Of a DNA stretch of 31,960 bases, positions 7,579 through 22,311 are shown one piece after another. The stretch is taken from IMG/VR virus record IMGVR_UViG_3300043427_002899, positions 1 through 31,960 of that record; one strand, 5' to 3'. The notes below the pieces were generated by a model. That model was given only the letters and a program-made list of their open reading frames with translations, searched no databases and was not told where the DNA came from. Positions within the stretch are counted from its first letter, which is position 1; every line of letters begins with the position of its first letter. The position numbers and the translations under genes were made by a program. The stretch comes from a virus.

Positions 7579-7586
7579 TTTTAATC

Positions 7587-7841
7587 ATGAATTACTATCG
7601 CCTTCTTTCTGAGGCTGTTAAAATTAACAAACAGCTGATTGAGTTTCAAGATCAAGGAATTATTGATTTGCCGTTGCAGGAGCGAGCAGATGAGATACAC
7701 AATATTTTTTATACCAAGGCGCCCTCTGGTTATTTTCAAGAATATGTGCTTGCAGTTCATACACGTACTGGCCGTGCAACTTGGCTTTGCGACAAGCCTG
7801 GAGTTAATGAGTTTTTGAAACGATTGGGGGTTAATTGGTAA
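7587..7841 (+). CDS. Small phage protein (84 aa)
   Basis: The ATG at 7587 follows TTTTAATC, matching the start contexts at 540 and 10148; an in-frame TTG at 7575 overlaps the previous stop and is less likely. The protein begins MNYYRLLSEAVKINKQLIEF and contains GYFQEYVLAVHTRTGRATWL, which resembles the strand pair of other short phage proteins. No domain is recognised. Last gene of the unit headed by cassette 3. Confidence 0.75.
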   Translation: MNYYRLLSEAVKINKQLIEFQDQGIIDLPLQERADEIHNIFYTKAPSGYFQEYVLAVHTRTGRATWLCDKPGVNEFLKRLGVNW

Positions 7842-7962: not shown

Positions 7963-8367
7963 ATGCAGACTTCTACTTTGACTCGCCCTTGCACTTTGAC
8001 TTTTGATGAGCTTCAGCAAAACCAATATCTTTTTAATAAGATCAATAGTTTGTGCGGGCTGAGCGAATACAAAATTCACAAGGCGCAGTTAGGTAAAGCT
8101 TACGATTATTACGATTTCAGCAACGGTACAAATGCTTGGCGCTTTGATGGTTTCATCACAGATGCGCAATGGAAAAAGATTGCACAACTTTGCATTCGTT
8201 TCAAGGCTGATATTTCTGAAGTAATTCGTGGTTTGACTTTTGATACAGAGCGAATTTCTGTTGTTGATGGCGAGCATCGTTCAGATTACTTTGTCCCTAC
8301 GACGCTGAAGGGCTGGATTGGTGAGGTTTTCTTTGGGATTGACGAGATGGGCGAAAGTAATACTTGA
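7963..8367 (+). CDS. Hypothetical phage protein (134 aa)
   Basis: First gene after cassette 4; the ATG at 7963 has the TTAGATCAATG context. The protein begins MQTSTLTRPCTLTFDELQQ and contains AYDYYDFSNGTNAWRFDGF, then WKKIAQLCIRFKADISEVI, which suggests a mixed alpha/beta fold. There is no membrane segment or catalytic signature. I do not recognise the family. It ends in a TGATTTTTACTTGCAATTCAC spacer. Confidence 0.78.
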   Translation: MQTSTLTRPCTLTFDELQQNQYLFNKINSLCGLSEYKIHKAQLGKAYDYYDFSNGTNAWRFDGFITDAQWKKIAQLCIRFKADISEVIRGLTFDTERISVVDGEHRSDYFVPTTLKGWIGEVFFGIDEMGESNT

Positions 8368-8402
8368 TTTTTACTTGCAATTCACTTTTATCTATCAGCA
8401 CA

Positions 8403-8873
8403 ATGTCACTTTTTGATTTGACCCCGAGCAACACAATCAGCACTTCTCAGATTAGACTTGCACTTATTGCAAGAAAATCTGAGATAGCAAAGGCGCATCA
8501 GGGATTTCCTAACATTTTTGCTGAGGAGTTTTACAGGACTTCAGTAAAAGATATTGACAGCTTTCTTTTTTATATTGATGGTAGTAACACAATCACTGCC
8601 ATCAAAGATACGGAAAGCGATTTTACTGCAATCGAGTTTACTATTGCAGAGCTGCAAACAAAGATTGATGGACTTCCGCTTGATGGATACTTTAGGCGAG
8701 AGAAAGATCAGCTTTGGTATTACTTTATTTGCGAAGATAAGCAGGTTGTTGAGCAAAAGTACGAGCTTCTCGATTTTTGTTTGAACGGGAAATGGATGTC
8801 TGTTGCCTCGATTTCAACTTTTAATGAGTTGAATCTTGTTGGGCAGGAGTTGCGTTATTTAGTCCTTGCTTGA
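8403..8873 (+). CDS. Hypothetical phage protein (156 aa)
   Basis: The ATG at 8403 has the TATCAGCACAATG context, nearly identical to the leader of the gene at 9408. The protein (MSLFDLTPSNTISTSQIR...) has an N-terminal helix and then beta-rich sequence (IDSFLFYIDGSNTITAI; GYFRREKDQLWYYFICED). No motif is recognised. Confidence 0.75.
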   Translation: MSLFDLTPSNTISTSQIRLALIARKSEIAKAHQGFPNIFAEEFYRTSVKDIDSFLFYIDGSNTITAIKDTESDFTAIEFTIAELQTKIDGLPLDGYFRREKDQLWYYFICEDKQVVEQKYELLDFCLNGKWMSVASISTFNELNLVGQELRYLVLA

Positions 8874-8888
8874 TGTTTGCACTTAGCT

Positions 8889-8927
8889 CTGTAGCAATAC
8901 AGGGTTTTCTGCAGATTTCGTATCTGC
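8889..8927 (+). other. Two tandem intergenic hairpins
   Basis: CTGTA-GCAA-TACAG (8889-8902) is followed by GGTTTTCT, and GCAGAT-TTCGT-ATCTGC (8911-8927) follows directly. Together they occupy most of the gap between the genes at 8403 and 8950. The first could be a weak terminator or processing site; it lacks a strong GC stem. Confidence 0.4.
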
Positions 8928-8949
8928 TATTCACCTATTCATTGGATCA

Positions 8950-9372
8950 ATGAAAAAGACGCTGTACTTTGAAAAGTTTGACAAGGTTCTCAATATTGAG
9001 ATCGAGCTTAAAGAAAAAGACGGTTTCAATCGTCTTTCTGTTGTTGGGTTTTTGTATGGCGAGGATGAAGAGTTGATTTCCTCGGGGCAGATCGTAGAGA
9101 TTGCCAGGCTTTTTGCCCCCGCTGAACTTTGTAATATTTGGGAATATTGGCACTTAAATGATATGCGAGCTGGGACAAAGACACAGACAGGATTAATTCG
9201 TTTTGAGAATAGTCTGCGTTCTCAGTTGGGTATGGGGCAAATGGATTACACACTAGCCTGTTTGTTTTTGCAAGAAAAGGATTTGCTTGTTGATGATGGA
9301 TATAGGTACGGAACGGCCTGGCTGAAAGAAGAACTGCCCCAAGAGGTTATTGATTACGTTCACTCACTTTGA
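8950..9372 (+). CDS. Conserved phage protein, WHLNDMRAG family (140 aa)
   Basis: The ATG at 8950 has the TTGGATCAATG context. After a beta-rich first half (MKKTLYFEKFDKVLNIEIEL) the protein contains LCNIWEYWHLNDMRAGTKTQ and later YRYGTAWLKEELPQEVIDYV. These two blocks, W-H-L-N-D-M-x-x-G and Y-G-x-A-W-L-x-E-x-L-P, recur in a small phage protein family without known function. The stop is followed by the stereotyped TGATTTTTGATTCACTGCAC spacer. Confidence 0.83.
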   Translation: MKKTLYFEKFDKVLNIEIELKEKDGFNRLSVVGFLYGEDEELISSGQIVEIARLFAPAELCNIWEYWHLNDMRAGTKTQTGLIRFENSLRSQLGMGQMDYTLACLFLQEKDLLVDDGYRYGTAWLKEELPQEVIDYVHSL

Positions 9373-9407
9373 TTTTTGATTCACTGCACACTTTATCTAT
9401 TAGAACA

Positions 9408-9809
9408 ATGATTGCAATTACTCAAGATCAAATCAGCCAAGAGATTTTTGATTGGCAGGATCTCAGTAGGTTTCGTGGGGGCAGATTTGATTCAAAAGAG
9501 ATCTGCGTTTTTAGCGATATGGGCGAAGAGATGTTTTTAGATTTCTCAGTCAGAGAATACACTTCTGACGAGGAGGATTTCTTTGGTACTGCTGAAATTT
9601 GCTGGCGTATCATTGTTTTTCTTAAAGAGCGCAGGTGCGTAACAAGTAATTTACAGGAATACGACGTAGAGTTTCCTGTAGAGATTGGGAATGAATACTC
9701 ACAGGAAGAACATGCAATGGAGTTTTGTGAGTACGCACTTGCAAGTTTTCTTAAGCATCAGAATTTTTCACGTCTGCCTTATGTAAATTTGCACCCGAGC
9801 GAGCTTTGA
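9408..9809 (+). CDS. Hypothetical acidic phage protein (133 aa)
   Basis: The ATG at 9408 has the TATTAGAACAATG context. The protein is acidic (EYTSDEEDFFGTAEICW; EYSQEEHAMEFCEY) with one basic patch (FLKERRCV). No family is recognised. It contains a copy of the nonamer CGCACTTGC at 9734-9742 and ends just upstream of cassette 5. Confidence 0.75.
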   Translation: MIAITQDQISQEIFDWQDLSRFRGGRFDSKEICVFSDMGEEMFLDFSVREYTSDEEDFFGTAEICWRIIVFLKERRCVTSNLQEYDVEFPVEIGNEYSQEEHAMEFCEYALASFLKHQNFSRLPYVNLHPSEL

Positions 9810-9817
9810 TATAGCTC

Positions 9818-9896
9818 AAAATTACTTTAATATAAGCTTGACCATCGGTGCCTTATATGGCATAATTAAGACATGCGAGGCAAGGTGTGTCTCGCT
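9818..9896 (+). promoter_or_regulatory. Promoter/leader cassette 5
   Basis: The block AAAATTACTTTAATATAAGC precedes TTGACC at 9838-9843, a 17-base spacer and CATAAT at 9861-9866; the predicted start is A9873. GCGAG (9875-9879) pairs with CTCGC (9891-9895). Compared with cassettes 3 and 4 (GCAAG/CTTGC) one A-T pair is exchanged for G-C on both sides. The leader ends TTAGACCAATG at 9920. Confidence 0.85.
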
Positions 9897-9919
9897 TTTG
9901 TTCTTTTATTTTTAGACCA

Positions 9920-10102
9920 ATGAAACAGATTTTAGCTGCCGCTTTTGTTGCGTTTTCTTCCTCAATGGCAGTTATTGTTGGGGGAACGTTCTTTCTTTTT
10001 GTGTTTGCGTCGTTGATTTCGCAAGATCAGCGAGTTTACAACTCTTGTTTACTTAAGCACAAATCGGCGGATTATTGCCGATTGATTGTGAGTGGTAGAT
10101 AA
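9920..10102 (+). CDS. Small membrane or exported protein (60 aa)
   Basis: First gene after cassette 5; the ATG at 9920 has the TTAGACCAATG context. Residues about 4-34 are hydrophobic (ILAAAFVAFSSSMAVIVGGTFF, then LFVFASLI), long enough for one membrane helix or a signal anchor. A short polar tail of 26 residues with two cysteines follows (YNSCLLKHKSADYCRL). Function unknown. Confidence 0.75.
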   Translation: MKQILAAAFVAFSSSMAVIVGGTFFLFVFASLISQDQRVYNSCLLKHKSADYCRLIVSGR

Positions 10103-10147
10103 TTTTCACAAGCAGCTTTTATTGTTTTACTATTTCGCTTTTGAATC

Positions 10148-10363
10148 ATGAATGTTTTTGTTTTGCCTACAGGGCGTGAGATTGAGAAAGACGCAAAATA
10201 TTGCGTTGCAACTAAAACTCGTGGACGCTGGCATCACAAGTTTTTTAAGTCACGCAAGGGCGCAGATAACGAGTTTGATTCAACTCGTGCATATCTCAGA
10301 AACCCTGACATGATTGCATGTTATGGGCTTGAAGATGTCAAGTTGATTAAGCCCGTAGTTTGA
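10148..10363 (+). CDS. Small basic phage protein (71 aa)
   Basis: The ATG at 10148 follows TTGAATC. The protein is basic in the middle (CVATKTRGRWHHKFFKSRKGAD) and may bind nucleic acid, but no motif is recognised. The stop is followed by TGATTTTATTCC, the usual spacer type of this arm. Confidence 0.7.
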   Translation: MNVFVLPTGREIEKDAKYCVATKTRGRWHHKFFKSRKGADNEFDSTRAYLRNPDMIACYGLEDVKLIKPVV

Positions 10364-10386
10364 TTTTATTCCATCGCTTTTTTGTT

Positions 10387-10551
10387 ATGCCTTATTTTGT
10401 TAATCGTCGCTCAGGAAGATACGACGACACTTTCTATGAATTTAACAACAAGCAAGAAGCTTTAGACATGGCTTCAAGGCTTCAGCCATCTGAGCATGGG
10501 CGAGCGTTTTACTACGTTAGCTCTACATGCAAAGACAACTGGCTTGAGTAG
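10387..10551 (+). CDS. Conserved small phage protein, YYVSS family (54 aa)
   Basis: The ATG at 10387 is chosen over the TTG at 10360, which overlaps the previous stop. The protein begins MPYFVNRRSGRYDDTFYEF, continues KQEALDMASRLQ and ends AFYYVSSTCKDNWLE. This order (strand, helix with E-A, then Y-Y-V-S-S/T-x-x-C-K-x-W) matches a small phage family I recall; its function is unknown. Confidence 0.72.
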   Translation: MPYFVNRRSGRYDDTFYEFNNKQEALDMASRLQPSEHGRAFYYVSSTCKDNWLE

Positions 10552-10574
10552 TTTTAATTACAACAAACATTGAA

Positions 10575-10715
10575 ATGGACTACGAACAAATTGCACAAGA
10601 GGATGCACTTTTCCCTTGGCTTGCCTCAGATTGCATGGGCGATCAATGCGAGGAAGCGACTGGTGATTTCTTTGATGATCTCAATGAGTTTGAAGATTGC
10701 GAAGATTTTGAATAA
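10575..10715 (+). CDS. Very acidic small protein (46 aa)
   Basis: The frame opens at ATG 10575 after ACATTGAA and fills the space between the genes at 10387 and 10752. Sixteen of 46 residues are D or E and only acidic charge is present (FFDDLNEFEDCEDFE at the end; no lysine or arginine). Such a charge pattern recalls DNA-mimic proteins that phages use against host nucleases or restriction, but that is inference; there is no family match. It could also be a short structural or chaperone-like protein. Confidence 0.6.
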   Translation: MDYEQIAQEDALFPWLASDCMGDQCEEATGDFFDDLNEFEDCEDFE

Positions 10716-10751
10716 ATAGTTATTTATCAACAATCACATCACATCAGACCA

Positions 10752-11261
10752 ATGAACTCTTCTGAACTTGCAAAAAAACTTACAGAGATCGACATCAAAA
10801 GTCTTTGCGAGACTGGGCAGGTTTTTCTTGAAGGACAATCAGCTTATTATGTAACCTTCAAGCTTGTACCTGATGAGTGTACGCAAATTTCAGATTTCGA
10901 TAGTTATGGACAGGTAGCATGGGCGAGATCAAACAGTCATCGCCCCGAAGGTTTTGATGGGGCAGCGCAAATTCTTTTAAGAGGGCGACATGAAAATCTT
11001 TGGTGGCAGCCCTATAAAGATGAAGATGGGAAGATTTACAATTCTCAGCAGGATTTCTTTTTGGTACGCAATCTGGCTGAGTTTGGATTTTATCAGATTG
11101 AGTTGAAGTTGTATGGGCCGTTGACTTCGATTATTGGGACGACGGTTGGAGTGATTGCACAAACCACTCTTTGCGGTATAGATACTTATGAGACCGAGGT
11201 GGCATCGGAGTATATTCGTGATATGATTAACGACTGGACTTCGCAGCTTGAAAATGCTTGA
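10752..11261 (+). CDS. Conserved phage protein, RPEGFDGAAQIL family (169 aa)
   Basis: The ATG at 10752 has the CAGACCAATG context. The central segment contains YGQVAWARSNSHRPEGFDGA, then AAQILLRGRHENLWWQPYKD and DFFLVRNLAEFGFYQIELKL, followed by YGP. This sequence of blocks is known from a widely spread phage protein (P-x-G-F-D-G-A-A-x-I ... W-Q-P ... L-x-E-F-G-F). Its function is unknown. The C-terminal part (YIRDMINDWTSQL) is helical. It overlaps the next gene by eight bases. Confidence 0.82.
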   Translation: MNSSELAKKLTEIDIKSLCETGQVFLEGQSAYYVTFKLVPDECTQISDFDSYGQVAWARSNSHRPEGFDGAAQILLRGRHENLWWQPYKDEDGKIYNSQQDFFLVRNLAEFGFYQIELKLYGPLTSIIGTTVGVIAQTTLCGIDTYETEVASEYIRDMINDWTSQLENA

Positions 11262-11565
11262 CAAACAATCGAAGCAATTGTTTTGGGTAATGGGTGCAAT
11301 CGAAAGATTGCAAGGGCTTGGATTTATTCTTGGTAGCCCTAGGCATGTAATTGTTGACAAGATAGATGAGTGGAATCAGATTGATTCCGAGCGTCATGAA
11401 CTTATGGATGACGAGTCACTAGAAAGTGCTACGGCTTATATTTGTGAAACCAACGGGGCAAAAGACGAAGACGCCGCAGTTATTACGGAGGCTGTTTTCA
11501 GCTTTAGAGATCGCAGGGAAGACATGGTTAAGTTCGCTATGAAGAACAATTTAGTGAAAAATTAG
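11254..11565 (+). CDS. Hypothetical phage protein (103 aa)
   Basis: The ATG at 11254 lies within the end of the previous gene; a TTG at 11248 is the alternative. The protein is helical (MLDKQSKQLFWVMGAIERLQ) and acidic in the centre (RHELMDDESLESATAY), with no recognised motif. It precedes a degraded copy of the promoter cassette. Confidence 0.7.
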   Translation: MLDKQSKQLFWVMGAIERLQGLGFILGSPRHVIVDKIDEWNQIDSERHELMDDESLESATAYICETNGAKDEDAAVITEAVFSFRDRREDMVKFAMKNNLVKN

Positions 11566-11590
11566 TTGTAGATAACTTCGATTAAGCGGA
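11556..11590 (+). promoter_or_regulatory. Degenerate promoter-cassette remnant
   Basis: AAAAATTAGTTGTAGATAAC here matches the cassette block AAAAATTAGTTAAAGATAAG with three changes, but TTGACA has decayed to TTCGAT and no good -10 box follows at 17 bases. No leader hairpin is left. It is likely a dead copy. Confidence 0.6.
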
Positions 11591-11698
11591 CAAGTTTCCG
11601 TGAATGGTAATTGGAAAAAAGGTTTTACATCTTCTGTTATGTTTGAAGTTGAAGATAAGCTGTACGAGGTTGCAGTAATTCATGTTTGCGATAATTGA
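11576..11698 (+). pseudogene. Probable gene remnant downstream of decayed cassette
   Basis: The frame from 11576 to the stop at 11696-11698 lacks a convincing start (only GTG at 11600 or ATG at 11642). It encodes a protein-like end: NWKKGFTSSVMFEVEDKLYE, then VAVIHVCDN. Together with the broken promoter remnant directly upstream, it looks like a cassette whose 5' part was lost. A short functional gene from the GTG is the alternative. Confidence 0.45.
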
Positions 11699-11732
11699 GT
11701 TACATATTCCGCCCCCTTACTCAAATCCTCAC

Positions 11733-11897
11733 ATGCCAAAGTATCACATTTGTTTAATGCAAGAAGGTGAAATGCAAAGCCTTGCTGAGTTTGATAGTTA
11801 CTCAGAGGCTGAAGATAAATATGATGAGTTTTGCGACAAGTACCCAAACGGTTGGGTCGAAGTTGTATCCGATGCAGATTTTCAAATGAGCAAGTAG
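11733..11897 (+). CDS. Small phage protein (54 aa)
   Basis: The ATG at 11733 follows CCTCAC; an upstream extension from 11682 adds an unlikely proline-rich segment. The protein reads MPKYHICLMQEGEMQSLAEF, then a helix DSYSEAEDKYDEFCDKYPNG and WVEVVS, a compact alpha/beta layout. Last gene of the left arm; a strong terminator lies 28 bases downstream. Confidence 0.7.
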   Translation: MPKYHICLMQEGEMQSLAEFDSYSEAEDKYDEFCDKYPNGWVEVVSDADFQMSK

Positions 11898-11925
11898 TTT
11901 TTAATTTCAATTAAATATGTGTGTT

Positions 11926-11955
11926 AACGGTGATATGCCTAAGCATGTCACCGTT
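11926..11955 (+). terminator. Rho-independent terminator closing the left arm
   Basis: AACGGTGATATGC (11926-11938) pairs over 13 bp, with one U-G pair, with GCATGTCACCGTT (11943-11955) around a CTAA loop; TTTCTTTG follows. Confidence 0.92.
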
Positions 11956-12164
11956 TTTCTTTGTCTTTTGCCCAATCAATTAACTTACTCACTCTCGCCC
12001 TTACATTCTCAGAGCCGCTGCTGAGAGCCTCTAGAAGGCGGTTGCGGTTGTAGATGCCCCTAGGAGACGCTGGAGGTTGCAGAGGCCTGTAGACGAGGCA
12101 GTAGCGAGGCACTGAGGAGCTTTGAGATCGAGAGATCGTGAGTTAGTGTTCTGTTCAAGCACAG
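11956..12164. other. Non-coding leader region, purine-rich second half
   Basis: About 210 bases between the terminator and the next gene. It contains TCTCAG-AGCCGCTG-CTGAGA (12008-12027) and a purine-rich stretch with repeated GAGGC units (GTAGACGAGGCAGTAGCGAGGC near 12091, written here only in part as a motif region). I see no clear promoter and no convincing coding frame. Confidence 0.4.
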
Positions 12165-12644
12165 ATGCGATTGATGCGCAGACAGAACACGAATGAAGTG
12201 ATGACAGTTGCAGAAGTGCATAGAAGACTTCGTGCGATTAAACGTATGTTAGGGAATAGAAATCAAGTATTGTATTATCAAGCATTGAATTTAGATTGCT
12301 TGCAAATTGATCTTACGGATGTAGAGAGTTTTTATACCTGCCCCATACACTTCGACAAGGCACAGTTCTTGAGATACATAGGCGAGAACAAGAATTTATT
12401 TAATAGAGATAATTTTATATCAGGGGAAGTTTTAGATTATGTCTCCAATAGAAAGAAAACTATATGCAGGAGTTTCTCTGTAACGGCAATGTTGTTTACG
12501 AAGTATAGAGACTTTACAGATGTGAAGAAGCATGTTATTGTTTGCCTGGGCAGCATATATCACGCCCCCCGACTCTTTTATAAAGATATTGCAAGTGGGC
12601 GGATTGTGTATGAGAAATGTAGTGAATACACAGACCTGCGTTAG
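12165..12644 (+). CDS. Hypothetical protein (159 aa)
   Basis: The frame runs from ATG 12165 (ATG 12174 is an alternative). The basic N-terminus (MRLMRRQNTNEVMTVAEVHR, RRLRAIKRMLGN) suggests nucleic-acid binding and is followed by an alpha/beta region (YYQALNLDCLQIDLTDVESF) and ends SGRIVYEKCSEYTDLR. Codon use is AT-rich, more so than the left arm. I do not recognise a family. It stands alone between the left-arm terminator and the candidate small terminase. Confidence 0.65.
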   Translation: MRLMRRQNTNEVMTVAEVHRRLRAIKRMLGNRNQVLYYQALNLDCLQIDLTDVESFYTCPIHFDKAQFLRYIGENKNLFNRDNFISGEVLDYVSNRKKTICRSFSVTAMLFTKYRDFTDVKKHVIVCLGSIYHAPRLFYKDIASGRIVYEKCSEYTDLR

Positions 12645-12805
12645 TAGTTTTATGATTAGACTTAATCTGTATCAAAAGCCCCCTTAACCTGCTTTTAGTT
12701 GCAAGCTAATTTAACTTGCATTTACCCGCCCCTTGCAGCTTCTTTTTGCTTTCTAATTAATTTATTTACTTTTTTGTTTAATTCTTTATTAATTTATTTA
12801 TTGCT

Positions 12806-13465
12806 ATGACTAACAACTTTGAAATTCAAGACGATAGCTTTAATATTGAGGATGAAATTAATGAAGAATATGACAATGCAGAAAATATTAGCTCTCTCGC
12901 GTCAGCTACAAATAGTAAACAGTTAAATAATTCTACCTCTGTAATAGATGATACAGAAAATCAAACGTGGCAACGAAATGCGAAAGTAGCTATTAATGAA
13001 ACTGAGAAAGAGTATTTTATTTTTAAGTTCTGGCTGGATAGTGGGAGGGGTAGATCAAAGCAATACACAGCTAAAGTATATAATTTAACAGAAGCCACTA
13101 TCTATAAGATAGCAAATAAGAATAACTGGGAATTAAGAGCTGCAGATTACGATCGCTATCAATTACAGCAAATGACAGCTGCAGAGAATAGTCGTCGCGC
13201 ACAGTTACATAAACAGAAGCTAGAAGAATATCGTATGCAACAGGAATTTATAGGGCGCAGTTTATCAGCAGATGCAGCCAAACTTGCTGCATTAGTAGGG
13301 AACACACTGGATAAGTTTATGAGTAGCGACAGGGAGATAGATATACGTGATTTACCTGCTGTACTTAATGCTGCGAATAAAGCTGCTGAAGTCGGAAGAA
13401 ATCTACAGTCATCCTCACTCGGGGTTGATCAGTTACTTACTGCGTTAGAAGAATATGACGAGTGA
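12806..13465 (+). CDS. Candidate terminase small subunit (219 aa)
   Basis: The ATG at 12806 follows TTATTGCT. An acidic, low-complexity N-terminus (residues 1-55) precedes a helix-turn-helix-like region (about 69-115: EKEYFIFKFWLDSG, RSKQYTAKVYNLTEATIYKI, ANKNNWELRAADYDRY). The N-W-E-x-R-A-A-D-Y-D ending is what I know from small-terminase-like phage proteins. A long helical region (about 120-205) follows, suited to oligomerisation. Small terminases recognise the viral packaging site. The large subunit is 4 kb downstream, a larger gap than usual. It could instead be another HTH regulator. Confidence 0.55.
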   Translation: MTNNFEIQDDSFNIEDEINEEYDNAENISSLASATNSKQLNNSTSVIDDTENQTWQRNAKVAINETEKEYFIFKFWLDSGRGRSKQYTAKVYNLTEATIYKIANKNNWELRAADYDRYQLQQMTAAENSRRAQLHKQKLEEYRMQQEFIGRSLSADAAKLAALVGNTLDKFMSSDREIDIRDLPAVLNAANKAAEVGRNLQSSSLGVDQLLTALEEYDE

Positions 13466-13659
13466 GTCTGATGTAGATTCTTCAATATTCGATCAATCAA
13501 CTTTTATTAAATAGTTATTTTGTCGCACTTGCTGATTGATCTCATTGCGAAATAGATACAGTTGCAGATACAGATAAATCACAAGCAGCGTTTTTTAATT
13601 ACGGGCGGACATCGTAGACAGAGTGCCTGGGTCGTGGTCACAGATGCAGTTTTGAGGGG

Positions 13660-13684
13660 GCCTCCAAGAGATTGGTTTGGGGGC
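13660..13684 (+). terminator. Probable Rho-independent terminator
   Basis: GCCTCCAA (13660-13667) pairs with TTGGGGGC (13677-13684), one U-G pair, around a 9-base loop; TTCTTTG follows. It ends the transcription unit of the candidate small terminase. Confidence 0.7.
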
Positions 13685-13763
13685 TTCTTTGCCTCGCTTT
13701 TAGGTCTGTTATCAAGATTAAAGACTGTTTTGAAATTTTGACCCCCCTCTGGTCTCGCTTTGC

Positions 13764-13792
13764 TTGACTGGAGATTTCACTTTTGGTAAAAT
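13764..13792 (+). promoter_or_regulatory. Sigma-70 promoter of the RepL-like gene
   Basis: TTGACT (13764-13769), a 17-base spacer and TAAAAT (13787-13792) give a predicted start near 13799, 16 bases before the ATG at 13815. It lacks the upstream block and hairpin of the left-arm cassettes. Confidence 0.8.
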
Positions 13793-13814
13793 CTTGTGGT
13801 CAAGATCCATTGCT

Positions 13815-14243
13815 ATGACTGAGTTCTCAGGAAGCGGTTTTGTTGAGAATGGCTTTGAGCAGGAAGATCCTGCAGATTCAGATGCCACTTATGGCTTCGT
13901 GATGTTATATACACAAAACTTGTTTCAATACTTAGATTTGCTCAAAACAAAAGAATTGCGCCCTAGAGATTTTTCTGTATTGTTCGCCTTGATGACTTTT
14001 GTAAATACAAAGACCGGGCGTTGTCATGCAACGCTTAAGCATATTGCAAGTGTTATTGAATGCAATTCAACGTCTGTGTATTCATCAGTTGCAAGACTTA
14101 GAAAGCATTTAATGCTTGCGACTTATGTCAGTCAAAAGACCGGGGAGAAAAGTTATTTAATTAATCCATTCATACTTGCCATTGGGGGCAAATCTAGAAG
14201 GATCGCTGCTCATGCAATGTTTCGTAGACTGATCGAGTCTTGA
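13815..14243 (+). CDS. RepL-like winged-helix protein, candidate replication initiator (142 aa)
   Basis: The ATG at 13815 (ATTGCTATGACT, the same context as the gene at 12806) is chosen because the frame's upstream TTG is the -35 box of the promoter. Residues about 49-116 form a winged-helix layout: RPRDFSVLFALMTFVN, then TGRCHATLKHIASVIE, then CNSTSVYSSVARLRKHLML, a wing, and KSYLINPFILA. The Y-x-I/L-N-P ending after the wing is typical of RepL-type plasmid initiators and related phage HTH proteins. The iteron array 540 bases downstream supports an initiator role. A transcription regulator is the main alternative. Confidence 0.6.
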   Translation: MTEFSGSGFVENGFEQEDPADSDATYGFVMLYTQNLFQYLDLLKTKELRPRDFSVLFALMTFVNTKTGRCHATLKHIASVIECNSTSVYSSVARLRKHLMLATYVSQKTGEKSYLINPFILAIGGKSRRIAAHAMFRRLIES

Positions 14244-14260
14244 GATCAGAGGAGGAATAT

Positions 14261-14539
14261 TTGCAAAACTTAGAGACTGAGGCTTACTGCAATTTTATAT
14301 TGCGTGACCCGTCGCATAAGTTTAAGCCATTCACTGAGTTACGCAAAAGGCCCTATGTGCATACAGAAAGAAGTATAGAGAAGGAACTGAAAGAGCGAGA
14401 TTCAGCATTCATCAATGATAGATATAAAAGAATACATATAGATGATTATGAGTTTGATCCATTCACATTCATAACAGATAGAAAGATTCCTAAAGGGCAG
14501 ATATTGCAAGCAATTAGAGATTCATCTAAAGACAGATAA
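14261..14539 (+). CDS. Hypothetical protein coupled to the RepL-like gene (92 aa)
   Basis: The start is taken as TTG 14261 because AGGAGG lies five bases upstream (14250-14255), the best ribosome binding site of this region; the frame is open further upstream to 14240. The protein is charged throughout (PFTELRKRPYVHTERSIEKE, RDSAFINDRYKRIHIDDYEF), ending KGQILQAIRDSSKDR. No family is recognised. It sits between the candidate initiator and the iterons, so a replication role is possible but unproven. Confidence 0.65.
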   Translation: MQNLETEAYCNFILRDPSHKFKPFTELRKRPYVHTERSIEKELKERDSAFINDRYKRIHIDDYEFDPFTFITDRKIPKGQILQAIRDSSKDR

Positions 14540-14540
14540 T

Positions 14541-14745
14541 TCATTCACTCGCACTTGCATTCATTCATACAGTTACATTCATTCATAGATAGACATTCAT
14601 TCATTTACATATTCATATTCACTTATAGTTGCATTCATTTATATATTTGCATTCACTTATAGATAGCCATTCACTTACATATTCATATTCAGTTACAGAT
14701 TAGCATTCACTTATAGTTGCATATTCATATTAATGTCACAGTCAT
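14541..14745. repeat. AT-rich CATTCA-type repeats
   Basis: Degenerate repeats of CATTCATTCA and CATTCACTTATAG run from directly after the stop at 14539 to about 14745. No coding frame is plausible. One CGCACTTGC nonamer (14550-14558) lies at the left end. The low GC content would suit a DNA-unwinding element next to the iterons. Confidence 0.7.
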
Positions 14746-14780
14746 AAATATAGATATTCATAGTTATGGATATAGTTACA

Positions 14781-15205
14781 GATAGCGATTGCTAAGTTAC
14801 AGATAGTGATTGCTAAATGATAGATATACATAACGATTGCTATATATAGATATAGATAGTGATTGCTATATATACATATAGATAACGATTGCTAGATAAT
14901 AGATATAGATAACGATTGCTAGATATAGATATAGATAGCGATTCCTAGATGATAGATAGCGATTCCTAGATGATAGATAGCGATTCCTAGATGATAGATA
15001 TAGATAGCGATTGCTGATAATTAGTTACAGATAGCAATTGCTAGTTAATAGCTATAGATAGTAATTACTGGTTGATAGTTACAGATAGCGATTGTTAAGT
15101 TGCACATAGCATTTTCCAGGTAATAGTTACACATAGCGATTGCTGATAATTAGTTACAGATAACGATTAGCTAAATATACCTATAGTTACAGATATATAT
15201 TGCAA
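14781..15205. repeat. Iteron array, about 17 copies of GATAnCGATTGCTA
   Basis: Copies start at 14781, 14802, 14829, 14855, 14881, 14908, 14934, 14955, 14976, 15003, 15030, 15057, 15084, 15105 (degenerate), 15132, 15159 and 15192 (degenerate). Spacing is 21-33 bases, clustered around 21 and 26-27. The copies at 14934, 14955 and 14976 form an exact 21-base tandem repeat. The core CGATTG is the most constant part. A replication-initiator or small-terminase binding array are the two main readings. Confidence 0.85.
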
Positions 15206-15230
15206 GTAATTGTTATCACAAGCCGCGTCA

Positions 15231-15270
15231 ACAGTTACAGTTACAGTTACAGTTACAGTTACAGTTACAG
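15231..15270. repeat. (ACAGTT) hexamer tandem repeat
   Basis: Six full copies of ACAGTT plus four bases, without interruption. The unit resembles the AGTTACAGAT linker that joins several iterons upstream, so it probably arose by slippage from the linker. Confidence 0.9.
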
Positions 15271-15299
15271 ATAAAGCAAGGCGCAGTTACAGATAGAGA

Positions 15300-15561
15300 G
15301 AGTCGATCCGAGCCTAAGGGCGGATTGTTTCGATTCCGTTACATTGGCACCGATCCGCACCAATGGTCCTCAGATGCTGTATATTGGTTGCAACGGCGAG
15401 GGAGCCGCCTCTCTGGCGCCCCTCCCGCAACTTGAAAACTAAAGAACCACTGCCGACATGCTCCCCAAGGGGAGCCTATGGGCACGCATTCGCGAGAGGC
15501 GGGGGATCGACTCCCCCGTGCCCTATTGCCCGCCACAGAGGCGGGCTCACCAGATCACACC
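15300..15561. ncRNA. GC-rich structured non-coding region with tRNA-T-arm-like minihelix
   Basis: GC content rises sharply after 15300. Three inverted repeats lie close together. GCTCCCC-AA-GGGGAGC is at 15460-15475. In a minihelix, GGGCAC (15480-15485) pairs with GTGCCC (15518-15523) and encloses GGGGG-ATCGACT-CCCCC (15501-15517). GCCCGCC-ACAGA-GGCGGGC is at 15528-15546. The minihelix loop TCGACT fits the tRNA T-loop pattern, but no D or anticodon arm is present. It may be a structured RNA leader of the next gene, a tRNA remnant or an attachment-site relic. Confidence 0.35.
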
Positions 15562-16182
15562 ATGGCTACCGATAAAACCAGCACCAATGCCAACGCTGCC
15601 CCTACGGGCGATGGCGACATCATGGCCGAACTGATGGCCGCATTTGCTCAAGCGGCTGCGCAGCGCACTCCCAACCGATCCAGCACCCCAGCAGCAGACG
15701 TTGACCCTTGGGCCGGCGTCACCATCACACCGGAGCAGGAGCGAGCATTGGTCAAACTGGGGTGGATGCCTCAGGGTTGGATTGTCCGGGAGAAAGCATC
15801 CCGTACCAATCTCCCAGCCCACCTAGCCAAAGCCGGCCCGCAGTGTCCTGATCCAAAAAAAGTCGCCAATGGTGAAGCCGACCCTATCGGCCTCGCCAAC
15901 TGGACTGCACTAGGGATGATTTGCGCTCGACTCGCTGTCTATGGGCAGATCCATGTAGGCCACTGCGCGCAGCTAATTACAGCAGCAGGAGCACAAGGCG
16001 ACTGGGCTAGCACTCCTGGCAAACTTGCAACCAAGCTCGGCAGCGTGCTACGCGTCAAAGTCGAGAGAACCGACAGCGGTTTCTACAAAGCCGCTCCGAA
16101 CGGGAAACAAGCTATGCACGATGTCTTAGCGCAAATGGCAGACCGCATCCTTAAGCCCGCCAAGACCGCAACCAAGGCCTGA
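15562..16182 (+). CDS. GC-rich hypothetical protein (206 aa)
   Basis: The ATG at 15562 follows the hairpin-rich leader (CAGATCACACC before the ATG); a longer frame from 15478 would run through the minihelix and is rejected. The product begins MATDKTSTNANAAP, has an alanine/glutamine-rich linker and then a domain from about residue 50 (DPWAGVTITPEQERALVKLG) to 195. The part GHCAQLITAAGAQGDWASTP followed by KLATKLGSVLRVKVERT has helix-turn-helix-like spacing. Codon use is far more GC-rich than its neighbours, pointing to recent acquisition. Family not recognised. Confidence 0.7.
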   Translation: MATDKTSTNANAAPTGDGDIMAELMAAFAQAAAQRTPNRSSTPAADVDPWAGVTITPEQERALVKLGWMPQGWIVREKASRTNLPAHLAKAGPQCPDPKKVANGEADPIGLANWTALGMICARLAVYGQIHVGHCAQLITAAGAQGDWASTPGKLATKLGSVLRVKVERTDSGFYKAAPNGKQAMHDVLAQMADRILKPAKTATKA

Positions 16183-16194
16183 ACCTCAACCATC

Positions 16195-16216
16195 CGGGCC
16201 CCACTATCGGGGCCCG
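16195..16216 (+). terminator. Candidate terminator, GC-rich hairpin
   Basis: CGGGCCCC (16195-16202) and GGGGCCCG (16209-16216) form a perfect 8-bp stem with a 6-base loop just after the stop at 16182. The following TTACTCATC is only a weak T-tract. Confidence 0.55.
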
Positions 16217-16240
16217 TTACTCATCAACCCCCATAGATCA

Positions 16241-16528
16241 ATGCAAGTAGCCACCAAGGCCACGGCCAGACCCAATCAATCCAACCGCACCAACTGGCGA
16301 GCGTTGGAGATTCTACTAACAGATACTGGGAGAATCCTCACACGATCCGTTGCAGGATGCGAGAGTCTGGAGACTGTCAGACTTAAAGCGCTGGATTCTT
16401 ACTTTGCATGGCAAGATGGGAGAACGGATATCATCCAGGCTGAACTAATGGCGCATCCACTGAAGGTCGCTGTAGCTAAAAACCACCAAGCTATTAGAGA
16501 GCTTCAGCGCCAAATACTGGATAGGTAA
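16241..16528 (+). CDS. Hypothetical protein (95 aa)
   Basis: The ATG at 16241 has the ATAGATCAATG context of the left-arm genes, the only clear example outside that arm, although the gene sits in the GC-richer island. The protein is basic and helical (TNWRALEILLTDTGRILTRS, then KALDSYFAWQDGRTD and NHQAIRELQRQILDR). No family is recognised. Confidence 0.7.
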   Translation: MQVATKATARPNQSNRTNWRALEILLTDTGRILTRSVAGCESLETVRLKALDSYFAWQDGRTDIIQAELMAHPLKVAVAKNHQAIRELQRQILDR

Positions 16529-16844
16529 CAGTTAAGAATTAAGCCGGGGGGCAATGTATAAAGCCCCCCACTAGATGGGGGGGGCGACCCTGCCTCGCAG
16601 GCATGAGCGCGGTACCCCCCTCCCAAAATATTTTTTACCTATTCTCCACAGCAATTACACTTAAAGATTTTTACTCGCTAAAATATTTTTCACCTACCCC
16701 CAAGCTTTTACAAATAACTCTGATCGCAAAATTTTTTTGCTTGCATTTTTCTACAGCTATTATACTTATTTCTTATCAGTAACAAATATTGACTTGCAAG
16801 ATTGCCCCCCGTCAGGCTAGTCTGTGCAGAGCTGCAAACGCTCA
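16529..16844. other. Intergenic region with alternative hairpins and AT-rich direct repeats
   Basis: GGGGGGC (16546-16552) can pair with GCCCCCC (16563-16569), while the same C-run can instead pair with the G-run at 16577-16584, so two hairpins compete. Downstream, AAAATATTTTTNACCTA occurs at 16625-16641 and 16680-16696. ACAGCNATTAYACTTA occurs at 16648-16663 and 16753-16768. TATACT in the second copy is a possible -10 box. No gene is seen. Confidence 0.6.
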
Positions 16845-17474
16845 ATGACTGTTGAATTGATTCACTGCACGCCTGAGGCTGAGAGGCTGATTGTCAAGAT
16901 GGCGAGAGTGAGCAATCCATCAAATGAAGATAATTTTGATACCGGGGCAAGACTTTTAAAGTATTTAATTAAACATAAACACTGGAGCCCATTTGAAATG
17001 GCCTCAATGTGCGTAAAAATTGAAACAGAGCGTGATATTGCTGCTCAGATTATTCGTCATAAATCATTTTCGTATCAAGAATTTTCGACAAGATATTCTG
17101 CTACCGCCCCTGCTGAAATTCCAGTATTGCGAAAGCAGAGTGTGAAGAATCATCAGTCGAGTGACGACAGTCTTGATGATGAGACGAAAAAGCGTTTTGA
17201 TTCGCAAGTAATGGTTACAATTAGAAATTGTTACTTGCTCTATCAAGAGATGTTGATTGCTGGGGTGGCTAAGGAGACGGCCAGACGTATTTTGCCTTTA
17301 TGCACGCCTACGACTATTTATATGCACGGGACTTTGCGTAGTTGGGTGCATTATCTGCAATTGAGGACTGCAGAGGATACACAGCTTGAACATCGTGTTG
17401 TAGCCGAAGACTGTCTTGCGATTTTTTGTGAGCAGTTTCCTGTTATTGCTGAGGCCGCCTTTGCGGTTGATTGA
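16845..17474 (+). CDS. thyX: FAD-dependent thymidylate synthase ThyX (209 aa)
   Basis: ThyX makes dTMP from dUMP using methylene-tetrahydrofolate, FAD and NADPH, supplying thymidine for viral DNA synthesis. The ThyX motif is present as RHKSFSYQEFSTRY (residues 71-84), matching R-H-R/K-x-x-S-x-x-x-x-S-x-R-Y. Other family segments include LLKYLIKHKHWSPFEMASM near residue 40, KETARRILPLCTPTTIY and LRSWVHYLQLRTAEDTQLEH. The length is normal for phage forms. The start ATG at 16845 (CTCAATGACTG) is preferred over a GTG at 16824. It lies between the replication-like block and the large terminase. Confidence 0.95.
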   Translation: MTVELIHCTPEAERLIVKMARVSNPSNEDNFDTGARLLKYLIKHKHWSPFEMASMCVKIETERDIAAQIIRHKSFSYQEFSTRYSATAPAEIPVLRKQSVKNHQSSDDSLDDETKKRFDSQVMVTIRNCYLLYQEMLIAGVAKETARRILPLCTPTTIYMHGTLRSWVHYLQLRTAEDTQLEHRVVAEDCLAIFCEQFPVIAEAAFAVD

Positions 17475-17511
17475 AAACGTGTATAGTGCGATGCAATAGA
17501 GCGTTGACACA

Positions 17512-18912
17512 GTGCCAGCCAAAGCCCGAAGCATGAGGTATGCCGACAAAGCGGCGCTTCAGACGCTAGGGCTTTTTCATGACACAACATTGATCAAGAA
17601 GTTTAAGTCAAAGAATTACAGTAGTTTTGATGTAAACGAGTGCGAGAAAAGAATTATTGATGACTTGCTCCCGCATCAAAGAGATTTTGTTTGTGATTTT
17701 GATCATAGATATGTGCTTTATGTCGGGGGGCTAGGAAGTGGTAAGTCGTATGCTTCAGTCGTGAAAGCTATCTTGCTCGCTTTTCGTTCTCAGGGGGAGC
17801 AGCATATATACCTAGAGCCAACATTTCCGATGATCAAGCAGGTGGCTTTGCCTACTTGGTTCAAAGTGATGAATAAATACGATATACCACATACATTTCG
17901 TACTGCGCCTTCGCCCGAGATCATCCTGAAGCTGCCCAACGGCGACACGCAGATCCTCTTGCTGCCGCTTTTGAACTACGAGCGCCTGGTGGGCATCAAC
18001 GCTGCTTCCCTGGTCATTGACGAGGCGGATACGGTCAAACAGGAGACTGCAGAGGCCGCCCTGGTCAAGCTGCAGGGGCGGGTTCGTGTGGGGAACTGCC
18101 CTCAAATTTGCTTTGCATCCACGCCTGAGGGGCGGAAATTTGTATGGAATTTCTTTGAGAAAGAAAAAAGTGACGACAAGCAGCTTTACCGTGCAGATAC
18201 CAGAGAGAATCCTTTCCTGCAAGATGGATATGTCGAAGACCTGTTAGAAAAGTACCCCCCTCACTTAGTTGACGCCTATGTTAGGGGGCTTTTTACAAAT
18301 CTGGAGACAGCAACTGTATTTTCAGAGTTCAATCGAGACGCAAATGCGTCAAAAGTGTTTCATGCAGAGGAGGGCGAAGTTGTCTTGGTGGGGGCGGATT
18401 TCAATATCGGGAAGTGCTCAAGCGTATATGCTGTCATGCGCAATTCTCACGCTGGGCAAACTTTGCACATTTTTGATGAAGTTATTGTGAGAGACACTTT
18501 TTCTCTCGCGGAGCACATCAAGCGCAAATTTATCAAGCACGTAAGCAGGGGGATGATTATTGTTTACCCCGACAGCTCGGGGTCACACGCAAGTACGTCT
18601 TCCACGCAAAGTGATCATGATATTTTGCGAGAAGCTGGGCTGAAAGTTGTCGCAGATCGCAGAAATCCCCCAATTGCTGAAACGGTTGCAATGGTGAACA
18701 ATTATCTACACAAAAAGCAGATTCTTGTTAATGCTGCTACGTGTGGGGATACTGTTGAGATGTGCGAAAATTGGACGTACGATTCAAGTTTAAAACCGAG
18801 CAAAAATGGTACTGTTGATTATTCGCACTTTGGCGATGCTATGCGTTATTTGGTTTGGCAATCTATGCCACGCCCCGCAGCCGGATTAGGACGTGGGCAG
18901 AGGTGGCGGTAG
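17512..18912 (+). CDS. terL: Terminase large subunit (466 aa)
   Basis: TerL is the ATPase-nuclease motor that fills the procapsid and cuts the DNA. Walker A is GGLGSGKS (72-79), Walker B LVIDEAD (167-173), and the coupling motif CFASTPEG follows (about 201-208). The nuclease domain has the expected acidic residues in GADFNIGK (about 303-310), VYPDSSGSH (about 353) and HFGDAMRY (about 442). The start is GTG 17512, with ATG 17533 an alternative; no Shine-Dalgarno is clear. A GC-rich stretch at about 17905-18110, covering Walker B, differs from both flanks and looks like a recombinant patch. Confidence 0.96.
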   Translation: MPAKARSMRYADKAALQTLGLFHDTTLIKKFKSKNYSSFDVNECEKRIIDDLLPHQRDFVCDFDHRYVLYVGGLGSGKSYASVVKAILLAFRSQGEQHIYLEPTFPMIKQVALPTWFKVMNKYDIPHTFRTAPSPEIILKLPNGDTQILLLPLLNYERLVGINAASLVIDEADTVKQETAEAALVKLQGRVRVGNCPQICFASTPEGRKFVWNFFEKEKSDDKQLYRADTRENPFLQDGYVEDLLEKYPPHLVDAYVRGLFTNLETATVFSEFNRDANASKVFHAEEGEVVLVGADFNIGKCSSVYAVMRNSHAGQTLHIFDEVIVRDTFSLAEHIKRKFIKHVSRGMIIVYPDSSGSHASTSSTQSDHDILREAGLKVVADRRNPPIAETVAMVNNYLHKKQILVNAATCGDTVEMCENWTYDSSLKPSKNGTVDYSHFGDAMRYLVWQSMPRPAAGLGRGQRWR

Positions 18913-19032
18913 TTTTCTTGTATTTATTTTTGGCTTATTGATTTGCCCCCTGAATTTCCTTCCTCGCACTTGCCCTTCTTTTGATTTTGCGTCGCATTGA
19001 CGCTACGATGAAGCAGACATTCTAGCGCGATT
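18913..19032. other. TerL-portal spacer
   Basis: Pyrimidine-rich, 120 bases, with the nonamer CGCACTTGC at 18965-18973. TTGACG at about 18997 with TTCTAG 17 bases later is a poor promoter candidate. No terminator is evident. Confidence 0.4.
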
Positions 19033-20739
19033 GTGGTACTCACACCTGGCTCTCTGATCCCAAACGCTGATGATCAACTGGGATTGGATCCTTTTGAGCG
19101 TCGTCACCCAGAAATCGAAGCAAATATTGAAGGTGTAACCGGGGTTGCTGAATATTCGATTGAACAGGCGCAGCAACTTGCAAGATTGGCCCCGATTAGA
19201 TATTGTACGCTGCCAGAATTTTATTTAACAGAGGCGACAGAAGAATATATTCCCTCTGATTACCTGGAAGAAGATGGGAGCTATCAAGTAAGGAAAACCA
19301 GGGCGCAAAGTAGCTTTGAGCCGTTTTATTGCTCGCTTCGTTCGCTTACTGTTGGTACCGCTTTAAGGAAAGGGATTGGGCTGCCTGAGGATATTGGGGC
19401 AGATTGGGGCACTTTCTTTGATGATTGCGACCTTGAGGGGCATTCGCTTGTTTCTTTCTGCAAGGAAACTTTTACTTCTGCGATTGACAACGGCGTAGCT
19501 GCGATTTGGGTTGAATACCCAAAGATTCCCGCAAATATCTCTGCTCGTGAAGAGCAATTGCTCAATCCTCGCCCTTACCTCGTGCTGATGAAGTGCGATC
19601 AGGTGCTTGAGTGTCGGCATGATATTTATACAGCAGAGATTTTGGGGCAGACCCTGTTTGGGTCTTTCCCGACATACTTGCGAATCAAGAGTGAAATTCG
19701 TCGGCAAAGTGCTTCAAATGAGTTTTTTGAAGAAGTTTTACCAGCAGTTCTTGTCTACGACATTAAACAGACCGAATTTTCGACCACTGGCGACATTGTT
19801 GAGGTGATGATAGTTGGGGAAAATACAAGAAGGCGTGTCCGGTGCCGTACTTATATCAAGCAAAATGTACCAGGTAACACTGACTTGTACGTGCTTGATA
19901 GCACAAGTTATCTTTCCGTGCCTTTTATTCCATTTGTGCCCGTATTTGGGGGTCAAAAAGAGGCATATTTCCGTGCCCGCCCCTTGCTTCTTGATATTGC
20001 ACGCCTGAATCTTCATCATTGGGCCGTTTCTGCTGATCTTGCTGAATCAATTCACTTAACTGCGGCGCCTATTTTAACAATGACAGGCGTTCGTCCTGAT
20101 GAAGAGGTAAAAGCGGGGTCTGGGCGTGCTCTTACGTCGCAAAGCCCTGATGCAAAATTTGCAATGCTTTCAGCTTCCATGGAGGGGGCTGGGGTAACTA
20201 TTCAAAATCTGCAGCGACTTGAAAAGTCAATGGAGCGACTTGCTGCAGTTGCAATGACGACTGGTAAAACACAGGCTGAGTCTGGCTTTGCGAAGCTGCT
20301 TGATCGCTCACAAAGCGATTCGCAGCTTGCTGTTTTGGTACAGTCGCTGGAAGATGCTTTGAATAGAGCACTTTTGTACGCCGCTGCTTACAGAAATTTC
20401 TCAGAAGTGCGTGTTTCTATTAGCAAGAACTTTATTCCTGTTAAGCTTCACTCTCAGCAAGTTATGGCGTACAGCTCGCTGTTTAAAGATAACGTTATGC
20501 CACTTGAGCTATTTATGCGTATGCTTGAAGCCGGGGAATTGTTTGAAGGGATTCCAAACTTCAGTATTCGTGACACACTGCGTTCGATGGGGCTTACCGG
20601 GCAGGAAACGGCAAGGGATCTAGGGGTTTCTTCTCTCACGCCTGGGGGGCCTGGGGTTGAAGTGGATAATAATGGACCTTTGAGCGAGGGGGCTGATAGA
20701 GAGGTTGGTGAATCCGGCATTGAAGTAACTGAGGCTTGA
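19033..20739 (+). CDS. Portal protein, DUF4055-like (568 aa)
   Basis: The portal forms the dodecameric DNA channel at one capsid vertex and seeds assembly. Position (between TerL and scaffold), length and sequence fit: DPFERRHPEIEANIEG near the start, RSLTVGTALRKGIGLP, a DNGVAAIWVEYP segment and a long helical region near residues 330-460 (ARLNLHHWAVSADLAESIHL; MTTGKTQAESGFAKLLDRSQ). These features agree with the portal group described as DUF4055. The start is GTG 19033. The C-terminal 40 residues are glycine- and acid-rich. Confidence 0.85.
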   Translation: MVLTPGSLIPNADDQLGLDPFERRHPEIEANIEGVTGVAEYSIEQAQQLARLAPIRYCTLPEFYLTEATEEYIPSDYLEEDGSYQVRKTRAQSSFEPFYCSLRSLTVGTALRKGIGLPEDIGADWGTFFDDCDLEGHSLVSFCKETFTSAIDNGVAAIWVEYPKIPANISAREEQLLNPRPYLVLMKCDQVLECRHDIYTAEILGQTLFGSFPTYLRIKSEIRRQSASNEFFEEVLPAVLVYDIKQTEFSTTGDIVEVMIVGENTRRRVRCRTYIKQNVPGNTDLYVLDSTSYLSVPFIPFVPVFGGQKEAYFRARPLLLDIARLNLHHWAVSADLAESIHLTAAPILTMTGVRPDEEVKAGSGRALTSQSPDAKFAMLSASMEGAGVTIQNLQRLEKSMERLAAVAMTTGKTQAESGFAKLLDRSQSDSQLAVLVQSLEDALNRALLYAAAYRNFSEVRVSISKNFIPVKLHSQQVMAYSSLFKDNVMPLELFMRMLEAGELFEGIPNFSIRDTLRSMGLTGQETARDLGVSSLTPGGPGVEVDNNGPLSEGADREVGESGIEVTEA

Positions 20740-20746
20740 GGTATAG

Positions 20747-21649: not shown

Positions 21650-21672
21650 CAATTCTTTCGTCGCACTTGCTG

Positions 21673-21700: not shown

Positions 21701-21723
21701 GTGTGTGTAGCTACTTTTTGATG

Positions 21724-22287: not shown

Positions 22288-22311
22288 GCTGTCAGCAGTT
22301 GTGCTACGGAA

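Follow-up and report, generated by a model that had tools for sequence, protein, structure and literature searches.

The stretch of DNA analysed here, called the window in the following, comprises positions 1–31,960 of the IMG/VR virus record IMGVR_UViG_3300043427_002899, which is classed as linear. Between the genes for its small and large terminase subunits, TerS and TerL, we find a gene for a winged helix-turn-helix (wHTH) protein, a small open reading frame (ORF), an array of CATTCA hexamers, an array of iteron-like repeats, a G+C-rich gene and the gene for the thymidylate synthase ThyX (Table 1). A first-pass annotation of this DNA had proposed that the wHTH gene and the repeats form a plasmid-type, iteron-regulated replication origin, and had named as the alternative a packaging site beside the small terminase gene at 12806. 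Here we report that the wHTH gene and the arrays belong to a conserved module linked to TerS. Its function has to be judged by comparing relatives; by that measure the packaging site is the better fit, and the plasmid origin is the weaker of the two proposals.

Nothing close to bases 8000–25000 of the window turned up in a search of 50,697 phage records. Among the matches listed for TerL, the top phages include those of Synechococcus and Prochlorococcus and also enteric phages, with 34–36% identity. TerS has only six matches at an expectation value (E) ≤ 0.01, all of them cyanophage records, and is 27–31% identical to the annotated terS products of S-CBS2, S-CRES3 and PSS2. The host of the virus is likely a cyanobacterium, and the viruses carrying the module are probably an uncultured clade of siphovirus-like cyanophages.

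Table 1. Genes, arrays and signals in the TerS–TerL region of the window.
Feature	Positions	Strand	Remarks
TerS, small terminase, 219 residues	12806–13465	+	phrog_6299, E 2.5e-13
Sigma-70-like pair TTGACT-17-TAAAAT	13764–13792	+	10/12 consensus; upstream of wHTH gene
wHTH protein, 142 residues, RepL/MarR-like	13815–14243	+	AlphaFold predicted local distance difference test (pLDDT) 82
99-residue ORF, function unassigned	14240–14539	+	overlaps end of wHTH gene
CATTCA array	14406–14709	+	14 hexamers, 11 noncoding at 14542–14709
Iteron array	14780–15172	+	16 sites, core TAGCRATTGYTA, near palindrome, steps of 21/26/27 base pairs (bp)
Three exact 21-base tandem copies	14933–14995	+	GATTCC variant
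Degenerate iteron	15191–15205	+	array end
ACAGTT × 6.7 tandem repeat	15231–15270	+	behind iteron array
G+C-rich gene, 206 residues from this start	15562–16182	+	58.9% G+C; 65% identical to L004 homolog
ThyX, FAD-dependent thymidylate synthase	16845–17474	+	TIGR02170, E 6.7e-50
TerL, large terminase, 466 residues	17512–18912	+	phrog_2, E 9.2e-37; Pfam Terminase_6N above cut-off

The iteron-like array is real and lies beyond chance. With up to three mismatches allowed, GATANCGATTGCTA occurs 36 times in the window, against 9.7 copies expected and 19 in the top one of 100 shuffles. On the + strand between 14781 and 15145 the motif is found three times exactly, nine times with one mismatch and once with two; together with degenerate sites that hold the spacing, this gives 16 iterons with starts at 14780–15158. 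The alignment holds 20 rows, of which those at 14748, 14921 and 15175 are out of register and were excluded. The earlier count of about 17 copies was hence a fair one (16 sites in register and the degenerate one at 15191), and the three exact tandem copies were also found as described, their core being GATTCC and not GATTGC. The near-identical contig L003 has two such copies and L002 has three (L- and G-numbers are our own handles), so that the number drifts, unless an assembler collapsed one. The core TAGCRATTGYTA is almost palindromic; the perfect palindrome would read TAGCAATTGCTA. At its centre the dyad score is 0.61–0.65 in three phages, the window scores taking in the three out-of-register rows, against means of 0.31–0.38 across all centres; two further centres of L061 rise a little above this, to 0.69. 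A coding function of the array was rejected, with no ORF of at least 60 residues over 14540–15338, and so was a widespread element: the AGTTACAGATAGYRATTG pattern matched 10 viral stretches, three of which are the window phage and its relatives, while the remaining seven matches are single and none lies within an array. ARAGORN and Rfam report no tRNA or known RNA in the window.

Ahead of the iterons stand the CATTCA repeats, whose A+T-rich character, noted in the first-pass annotation, amounts to about 66–80% A+T. The first three of the 14 hexamers sit inside the 99-residue ORF, and on the opposite strand no CATTCA is present at 14400–14760. Within 2 kb after TerS the window has 16 sense copies, compared to a maximum of 3 in 200 random models.

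A comparison across the TerL clade shows how regular this arrangement is. A TerL profile gave 68 loci, of which 67 were analysed; L003, whose contig starts within the array, was left out. A TerS match is present upstream in 28 of the 67, and each of these 28 has a repeat-dense stretch between its two terminase genes. Eight loci whose sequence extends 3.3 kb or more ahead of TerL lack both TerS and such a stretch. Because the repeat score also climbs on coding repeats (L071 and parts of L093, L119 and L070), CATTCA was counted separately; the motif had been named in the first-pass annotation, but had already been observed in relatives before the counting. In the 2 kb after TerS, every one of 31 records has 5–25 copies, more than any of its 200 first-order random models gave, while the reverse complement occurs 0–3 times in the same stretches. 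For G013 the count covers 1,339 bases after TerS. Near-identical records are among the 31, which form 20 clusters at 90% identity; the cluster representatives hold 285 sense and 14 antisense copies. With a stricter pattern of three CATTCA, 5 of 12 records matched; G015, where the copies lie wider apart, was missed. In a TerS search of 10 records the gene was found in three; it was not found in L112, L114, L118, L120, L128, L103 and G002, which may only mean that these are fragments.

Outside the array, CATTCA on the array strand stays below the second-order Markov mean in five of five sequences, two of which (G002 and the window) overlap. In G003 (12 copies against 28.2), G013 (10 against 25.7) and G002 (1 against 9.3), none of 30 simulations gave fewer copies than are present. 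On the other strand the counts are 25 against 31.8 in G003, 30 against 30.1 in G005, 24 against 29.4 in G013, 14 against 12.7 in the window and 10 against 15.0 in G002. Since gene direction confounds this comparison, the depletion is only suggestive.

In 18 of 18 TerS loci read, TerS and the array are separated by a wHTH-like ORF. In these loci and in L070, which has no TerS on its contig, carries CATACATTTA-type repeats and stands outside the 31 records, the ORF before the array encodes 134–212 residues and belongs to one of four types, I (that of the window) to IV. With hhalign, types I and II score 91%, I and III 85%, and II and III 98%, and judged from these profiles types I–III are probably one family; type IV is tied to it by eye and by a weak hidden Markov model match. 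CATTCA is common to all types, while the second array is variable. By eye, a TAGCAATYG-like core of the second array occurs with types I–IV, and the idea that its motif follows the wHTH type was rejected on this ground. The idea that it follows the G+C-rich gene was dropped as well, as L101 has the L087 array without a match to that gene. Dense iterons are restricted to the nearest relatives of the window. L004, which lies within the 98-kb record G003, and L061, whose TerL is 55% identical to that of the window, both show the order wHTH gene, CATTCA array, iterons, G+C-rich gene and TerL, with iteron steps of 21 and 27 bp, and in L061 also of 54 (2 × 27). TerS stands in front of the module in L004, and the L061 contig starts inside the wHTH gene. 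The recurrent module can thus be written as TerS, wHTH gene, CATTCA array, second array (here the iterons) and often the G+C-rich gene.

A rearranged genome gives a hint as to which of the two terminase genes the module accompanies. In G005 (109,690 bp) TerS lies at 5820–6668 and TerL starts at 34053, 27 kb apart. A type III wHTH gene (7114–7599) follows TerS, not TerL, and behind it come a small ORF, the CATTCA array, a second repeat stretch and an ORF of 247 residues. The wHTH gene and the arrays have stayed with TerS, and the linkage therefore points to TerS.

The wHTH family is also found in T7-like cyanophages. One example is gene p013 of Synechococcus phage S-SRP02 (29% identity, E 1e-12), which lies beside the large terminase and is annotated as hypothetical only; the accessible part of the S-SRP02 description makes no mention of it (PMC8790148). 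In 32 of 33 T7-like loci, forming 12 clusters, DNA maturase B is encoded just downstream of the wHTH gene on the same strand, the wHTH match ending 298–438 nucleotides upstream of it. At the 33rd locus, S38C3, the large terminase starts at base 24 and the wHTH gene is at the record end, which is the same order if the record is circular. P-SCSP1a has a small gene directly upstream of TerL, relatives of which are annotated as terminase small subunit or DNA maturase A. This gene found no convincing match as a T7-like TerS in the 33 loci: 32 gave none and L063 gave one on the opposite strand (E 0.012), in a weak test with a short query and many loci that are fragments. A scan of genome contigs returned a single locus, a Cyanobium metagenome-assembled contig with a piece of a T7-like phage. 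The terminase linkage of the wHTH gene holds in two phage lineages and the array in one, and its place next to the large terminase of T7-like cyanophages suggests that the wHTH protein takes part in packaging.

An AlphaFold model built on an alignment of 16 sequences folds confidently into a winged helix from about residue 27 onwards, bearing out the layout that had been read from the translation. The protein matches HTH_36 just below the cut-off (E 3.1e-5) and has six weak PHROG matches (E about 0.006–0.17), five of them to replication families. The first-pass label RepL-like survives in part. Eight of the 16 family members match Pfam RepL (PF05732) at E ≤ 0.1, the best at 8e-5. Two type II proteins stay below the cut-off, and for the window protein itself RepL gives nothing at E ≤ 1. 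MarR_2 matches 12 of the 16 (best E 0.00028) and HTH_36 matches six. Foldseek against viral models returns the S38C3 relative, unnamed phage proteins and RepL-annotated and replication proteins. With VIA-align, Z is at most 8.2 and Fur, MarR, CRP and initiator folds come close together; an initiator among the PDB rows reaches 7.2–7.9, tied with others, and no TerS is among the rows listed, which excludes nothing. RepL-like is a fair description of the predicted fold family and no proof of initiation.

In Foldseek searches of solved structures MarR-type regulators come out on top, the best at E 1.1e-3 and none at E ≤ 0.001. Together with the MarR_2 matches, and with near-palindromic sites that suit a dimeric regulator, this brings in a hub of gene control, in which a MarR-like protein would bind the arrays as clustered operators or as sites of anti-termination or silencing, and so switch the late operon or insulate it. 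We hold this to be quite unlikely. Sixteen sites over about 390 bp and a second array far exceed what operators usually need, and the linkage is to TerS, also where TerL is 27 kb away. The promoter evidence speaks against it too: the sigma-70 pair assigned to the wHTH gene exists, with its 10/12 match, but is not beyond chance, as 12600–17600 holds 11 promoter-like sites against 12.6 in shuffles.

We next consider the origin, in which the wHTH protein would be a stand-alone initiator of RepL/O type that binds the iterons, melts A+T-rich DNA and recruits the helicase, perhaps at a second origin for a late or plasmid state, in addition to the O–DnaB module. Direct repeats of regular spacing near a DNA-binding protein gene, as in iteron origins, are present in the window, their sites are near-palindromic, and the RepL matches within the family, the weak PHROG replication matches (best E 0.0057) and the replication proteins among the structural neighbours all agree with an initiator. 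L061 has a very A+T-rich stretch (86–96%), and for its lytic replication phage P1 depends on RepL and on an A/T-rich region, as the accessible part of one study states (PMC9948254). This stretch is not conserved, however: L004 shows 54–60% and then 34–44% A+T. Additionally, the replication genes are elsewhere. In G003 the DnaB helicase (Pfam E 8.8e-53) is encoded about 31 kb from the array and adjoins an O-like replication-initiation protein (phrog_270, E 1.1e-7); in G013 the distance is about 16 kb, with an O-like match alongside; and in the linear record G005 it is about 73 kb, an O-like match being absent there in a weak test. The partial, 43-kb record G002 has no DnaB match. These four records make up the test, the window having been scanned only in part. 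A distant DnaB is compatible with a second origin.

GC skew, proposed in the first-pass annotation as a check for an origin at the array, gave no clear verdict. The window, G003 and G013 lack a lasting switch at this place, which counts against an origin; their skew only dips for a few kb across the G+C-rich gene. The cumulative curve of G005 reverses close to the array, with a maximum near 7 kb and a fall to 28 kb; this agrees with an origin in place and is opposite in sign, since a leading-strand origin should give a minimum. No relative of the wHTH protein was found among 72,556 plasmids at E ≤ 1. The constant linkage to TerS and the same family beside maturase B in T7-like phages also argue against an initiator. 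Of the traits of an iteron origin, the repeats beside a wHTH gene are present, while a conserved A+T-rich stretch and a helicase module at the array are not, and we consider such an origin rather unlikely.

Clustered, directional repeats beside a gene for a DNA-binding protein could also serve as a partition-like centromere or DNA-positioning array for a prophage kept outside the chromosome, or could titrate a DNA-binding protein of the host as a decoy. This seems very improbable to us. Neither a partition ATPase nor an integrase was seen among the 15 G003 proteins scanned of 160 ORFs, a weak test, and the linkage to TerS would be left unexplained.

Because the arrays follow TerS with the gene of a partner DNA-binding protein between, a packaging address is likelier than a plasmid-like origin. 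The region may well be a packaging-initiation site of pac or cosB type with a dedicated accessory wHTH protein, an assignment drawn from comparing genomes to which we give an even chance. If so, the wHTH protein would be terminase-linked rather than an initiator. In headful phages the recognition region for pac lies in or beside the TerS gene, according to the accessible part of a review (PMC9611059), and the arrays described here are beside TerS in 28 of 28 loci and 31 of 31 records, and likewise in G005, with CATTCA as the directional sequence gathered at a single site. After replication of the DNA, TerS and the wHTH protein would bind the arrays and form a nucleoprotein complex with them, and TerL would make the first cut there. 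CATTCA would most simply be paired with TerS, since TerS is the conserved protein, while a wHTH dimer could read the near-palindromic sites and arrange or bend the DNA, in a way similar to the joint action of IHF and the TerS wHTH at lambda cosB. The same review describes the TerS contacts of pac phages as weak and sequence-independent in vitro (PMC9611059), which would leave room for a sequence-reading helper.

Several observations weigh against a packaging site. In S-CBS2, S-CRES3 and PSS2 terS abuts terL, and no CATTCA cluster is present in the stretches read. No array was detected beside the wHTH gene in T7-like phages, so that the protein does not need one. The second array is untied to the wHTH type, and L075, L070, L119, L125 and G005 have other repeats (by eye). 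L104 only just exceeds chance, with 5 CATTCA against a maximum of 4, and the depletion outside the array is slight and within the simulated range in G005 (23 against 28.5) and in the window (3 against 6.7). The linkage in G005 is a single rearrangement, wHTH domains of this kind are also usual in replication initiators and regulators, and the known pac sites that the accessible text covers are far shorter than these arrays (PMC9611059). A bolder version of the packaging site seems unlikely to us, namely a new type of start site at which TerS has ceded recognition to a fast-evolving wHTH protein of the RepL family and a two-part array of several hundred bases, perhaps coupling late replication to packaging; in T7-like cyanophages the wHTH protein might even replace the small terminase.

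Around the module we made a number of further observations. Look-alikes of the 99-residue ORF occupy the same place in L125 and G005, with similar DYxFxP...IPKGQxL ends (by eye), and no such ORF was seen in L004. Behind the array, G003 has a ACAGTTGCCAAT repeat with a 12-bp period. The product of the G+C-rich gene could have a C-terminal winged helix; the low-confidence model (pLDDT 51.5) is too poor to use, and the kinship with the L061 gene is weak. The gene behind the array has 58.9% G+C in the window (15562–16182), 66.0% in L004 (4689–5318) and 68.2% in L061 (999–1571). In each of these phages it exceeds the G+C content of the wHTH and TerL genes, and in two of them also that of TerS. GC skew is reversed over this gene in the window, and the DNA before it (15470–15560) would form strong RNA hairpins (z −2.7), one of which resembles an acceptor plus T-arm, with nothing reported by ARAGORN and Rfam. 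The motif CGCACTTGC occurs 10 times in the window against 0.33 expected, at 3052, 3773, 6394, 6614, 9734, 13524, 14550, 18965 and 21662 on the + strand and at 4056 on the − strand; one copy lies between the TerS and wHTH genes and another at the start of the CATTCA array. It is possibly a regulatory motif of the phage.

Among the relatives, the ThyX gene of L004 (6227–7957) is seemingly split by an intein (by eye): residues 399–564 of the 576-residue ORF match TIGR02170 model positions 54–211, with a foreign stretch ahead. The left arm of G003 (L018) has ORFs at 3070–3969, 9037–9843 and 10506–11399, the products of which are a sigma factor (phrog_351, E 7.5e-52), an exonuclease and an Erf-like annealing protein. 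An ORF of L019 (12965–13633) consists mostly of alanine-rich repeats, encoded by a 12-bp tandem array of about 18 units. The 70,688-base G013 contig has the same 127 bp, exactly, at both ends (L142 start and L143 end), which closes it to a circle of about 70.6 kb in assembly with the break beside the array. This bears on the circular permutation expected of headful packaging, though it could also be an effect of the assembler or another type of ending.

In summary, this clade keeps a directional CATTCA array after TerS over 20 clusters, together with a separate DNA-binding partner, and we found no description of such a module in the openly licensed articles of PubMed Central. How small terminases recognise phage DNA is described, in the accessible text, as still unclear after four decades (PMC9611059). 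A binding test could draw on the module for defined DNA substrates, for two proteins as candidate readers and for variants that occur naturally. It also advises caution: an iteron-like array should not be called an origin before relatives have been compared.

Set beside known systems, the region shares with the P1 lytic replicon and the RepL proteins of Firmicute plasmids (PF05732) a RepL-like winged helix and A/T-rich DNA; it differs in that RepL gives no match to the window protein at E ≤ 1 and in that the repeats lie outside the wHTH gene. The P1 replicon comprises RepL, oriL and A/T-rich DNA, with oriL postulated inside repL, in the accessible account (PMC9948254). S-SRP02 p013 and its T7-like relatives have the same wHTH family beside the large terminase, in a T7-like phage and with no array detected. 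S-CBS2, S-CRES3 and PSS2 share a homologous TerS and have neither a wHTH gene nor an array between terS and terL. The pac site of P1 has repeated hexamers. With it and those of P22 and SPP1 the window region shares its place at the TerS gene, while it adds several hundred bases of CATTCA and second array and a wHTH gene; P22 pac is a 22-bp site in the TerS gene and SPP1 has a few contact points, as far as the accessible text goes (PMC9611059). At lambda cosB the wHTH of TerS (gpNu1) dimerises and docks on the R sites, aided by IHF bending, according to the accessible part of that work (PMC4669245), and repeated sites for a wHTH dimer beside the terminase genes, with a bending partner, are what the two systems would have in common. 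The lambda wHTH is the N-terminal domain of TerS itself and is served by three R sites (R3, R2, R1), whereas here type I wHTH protein and TerS are separate genes with a profile match probability of 0.2%, and a separate wHTH protein would serve two long arrays.

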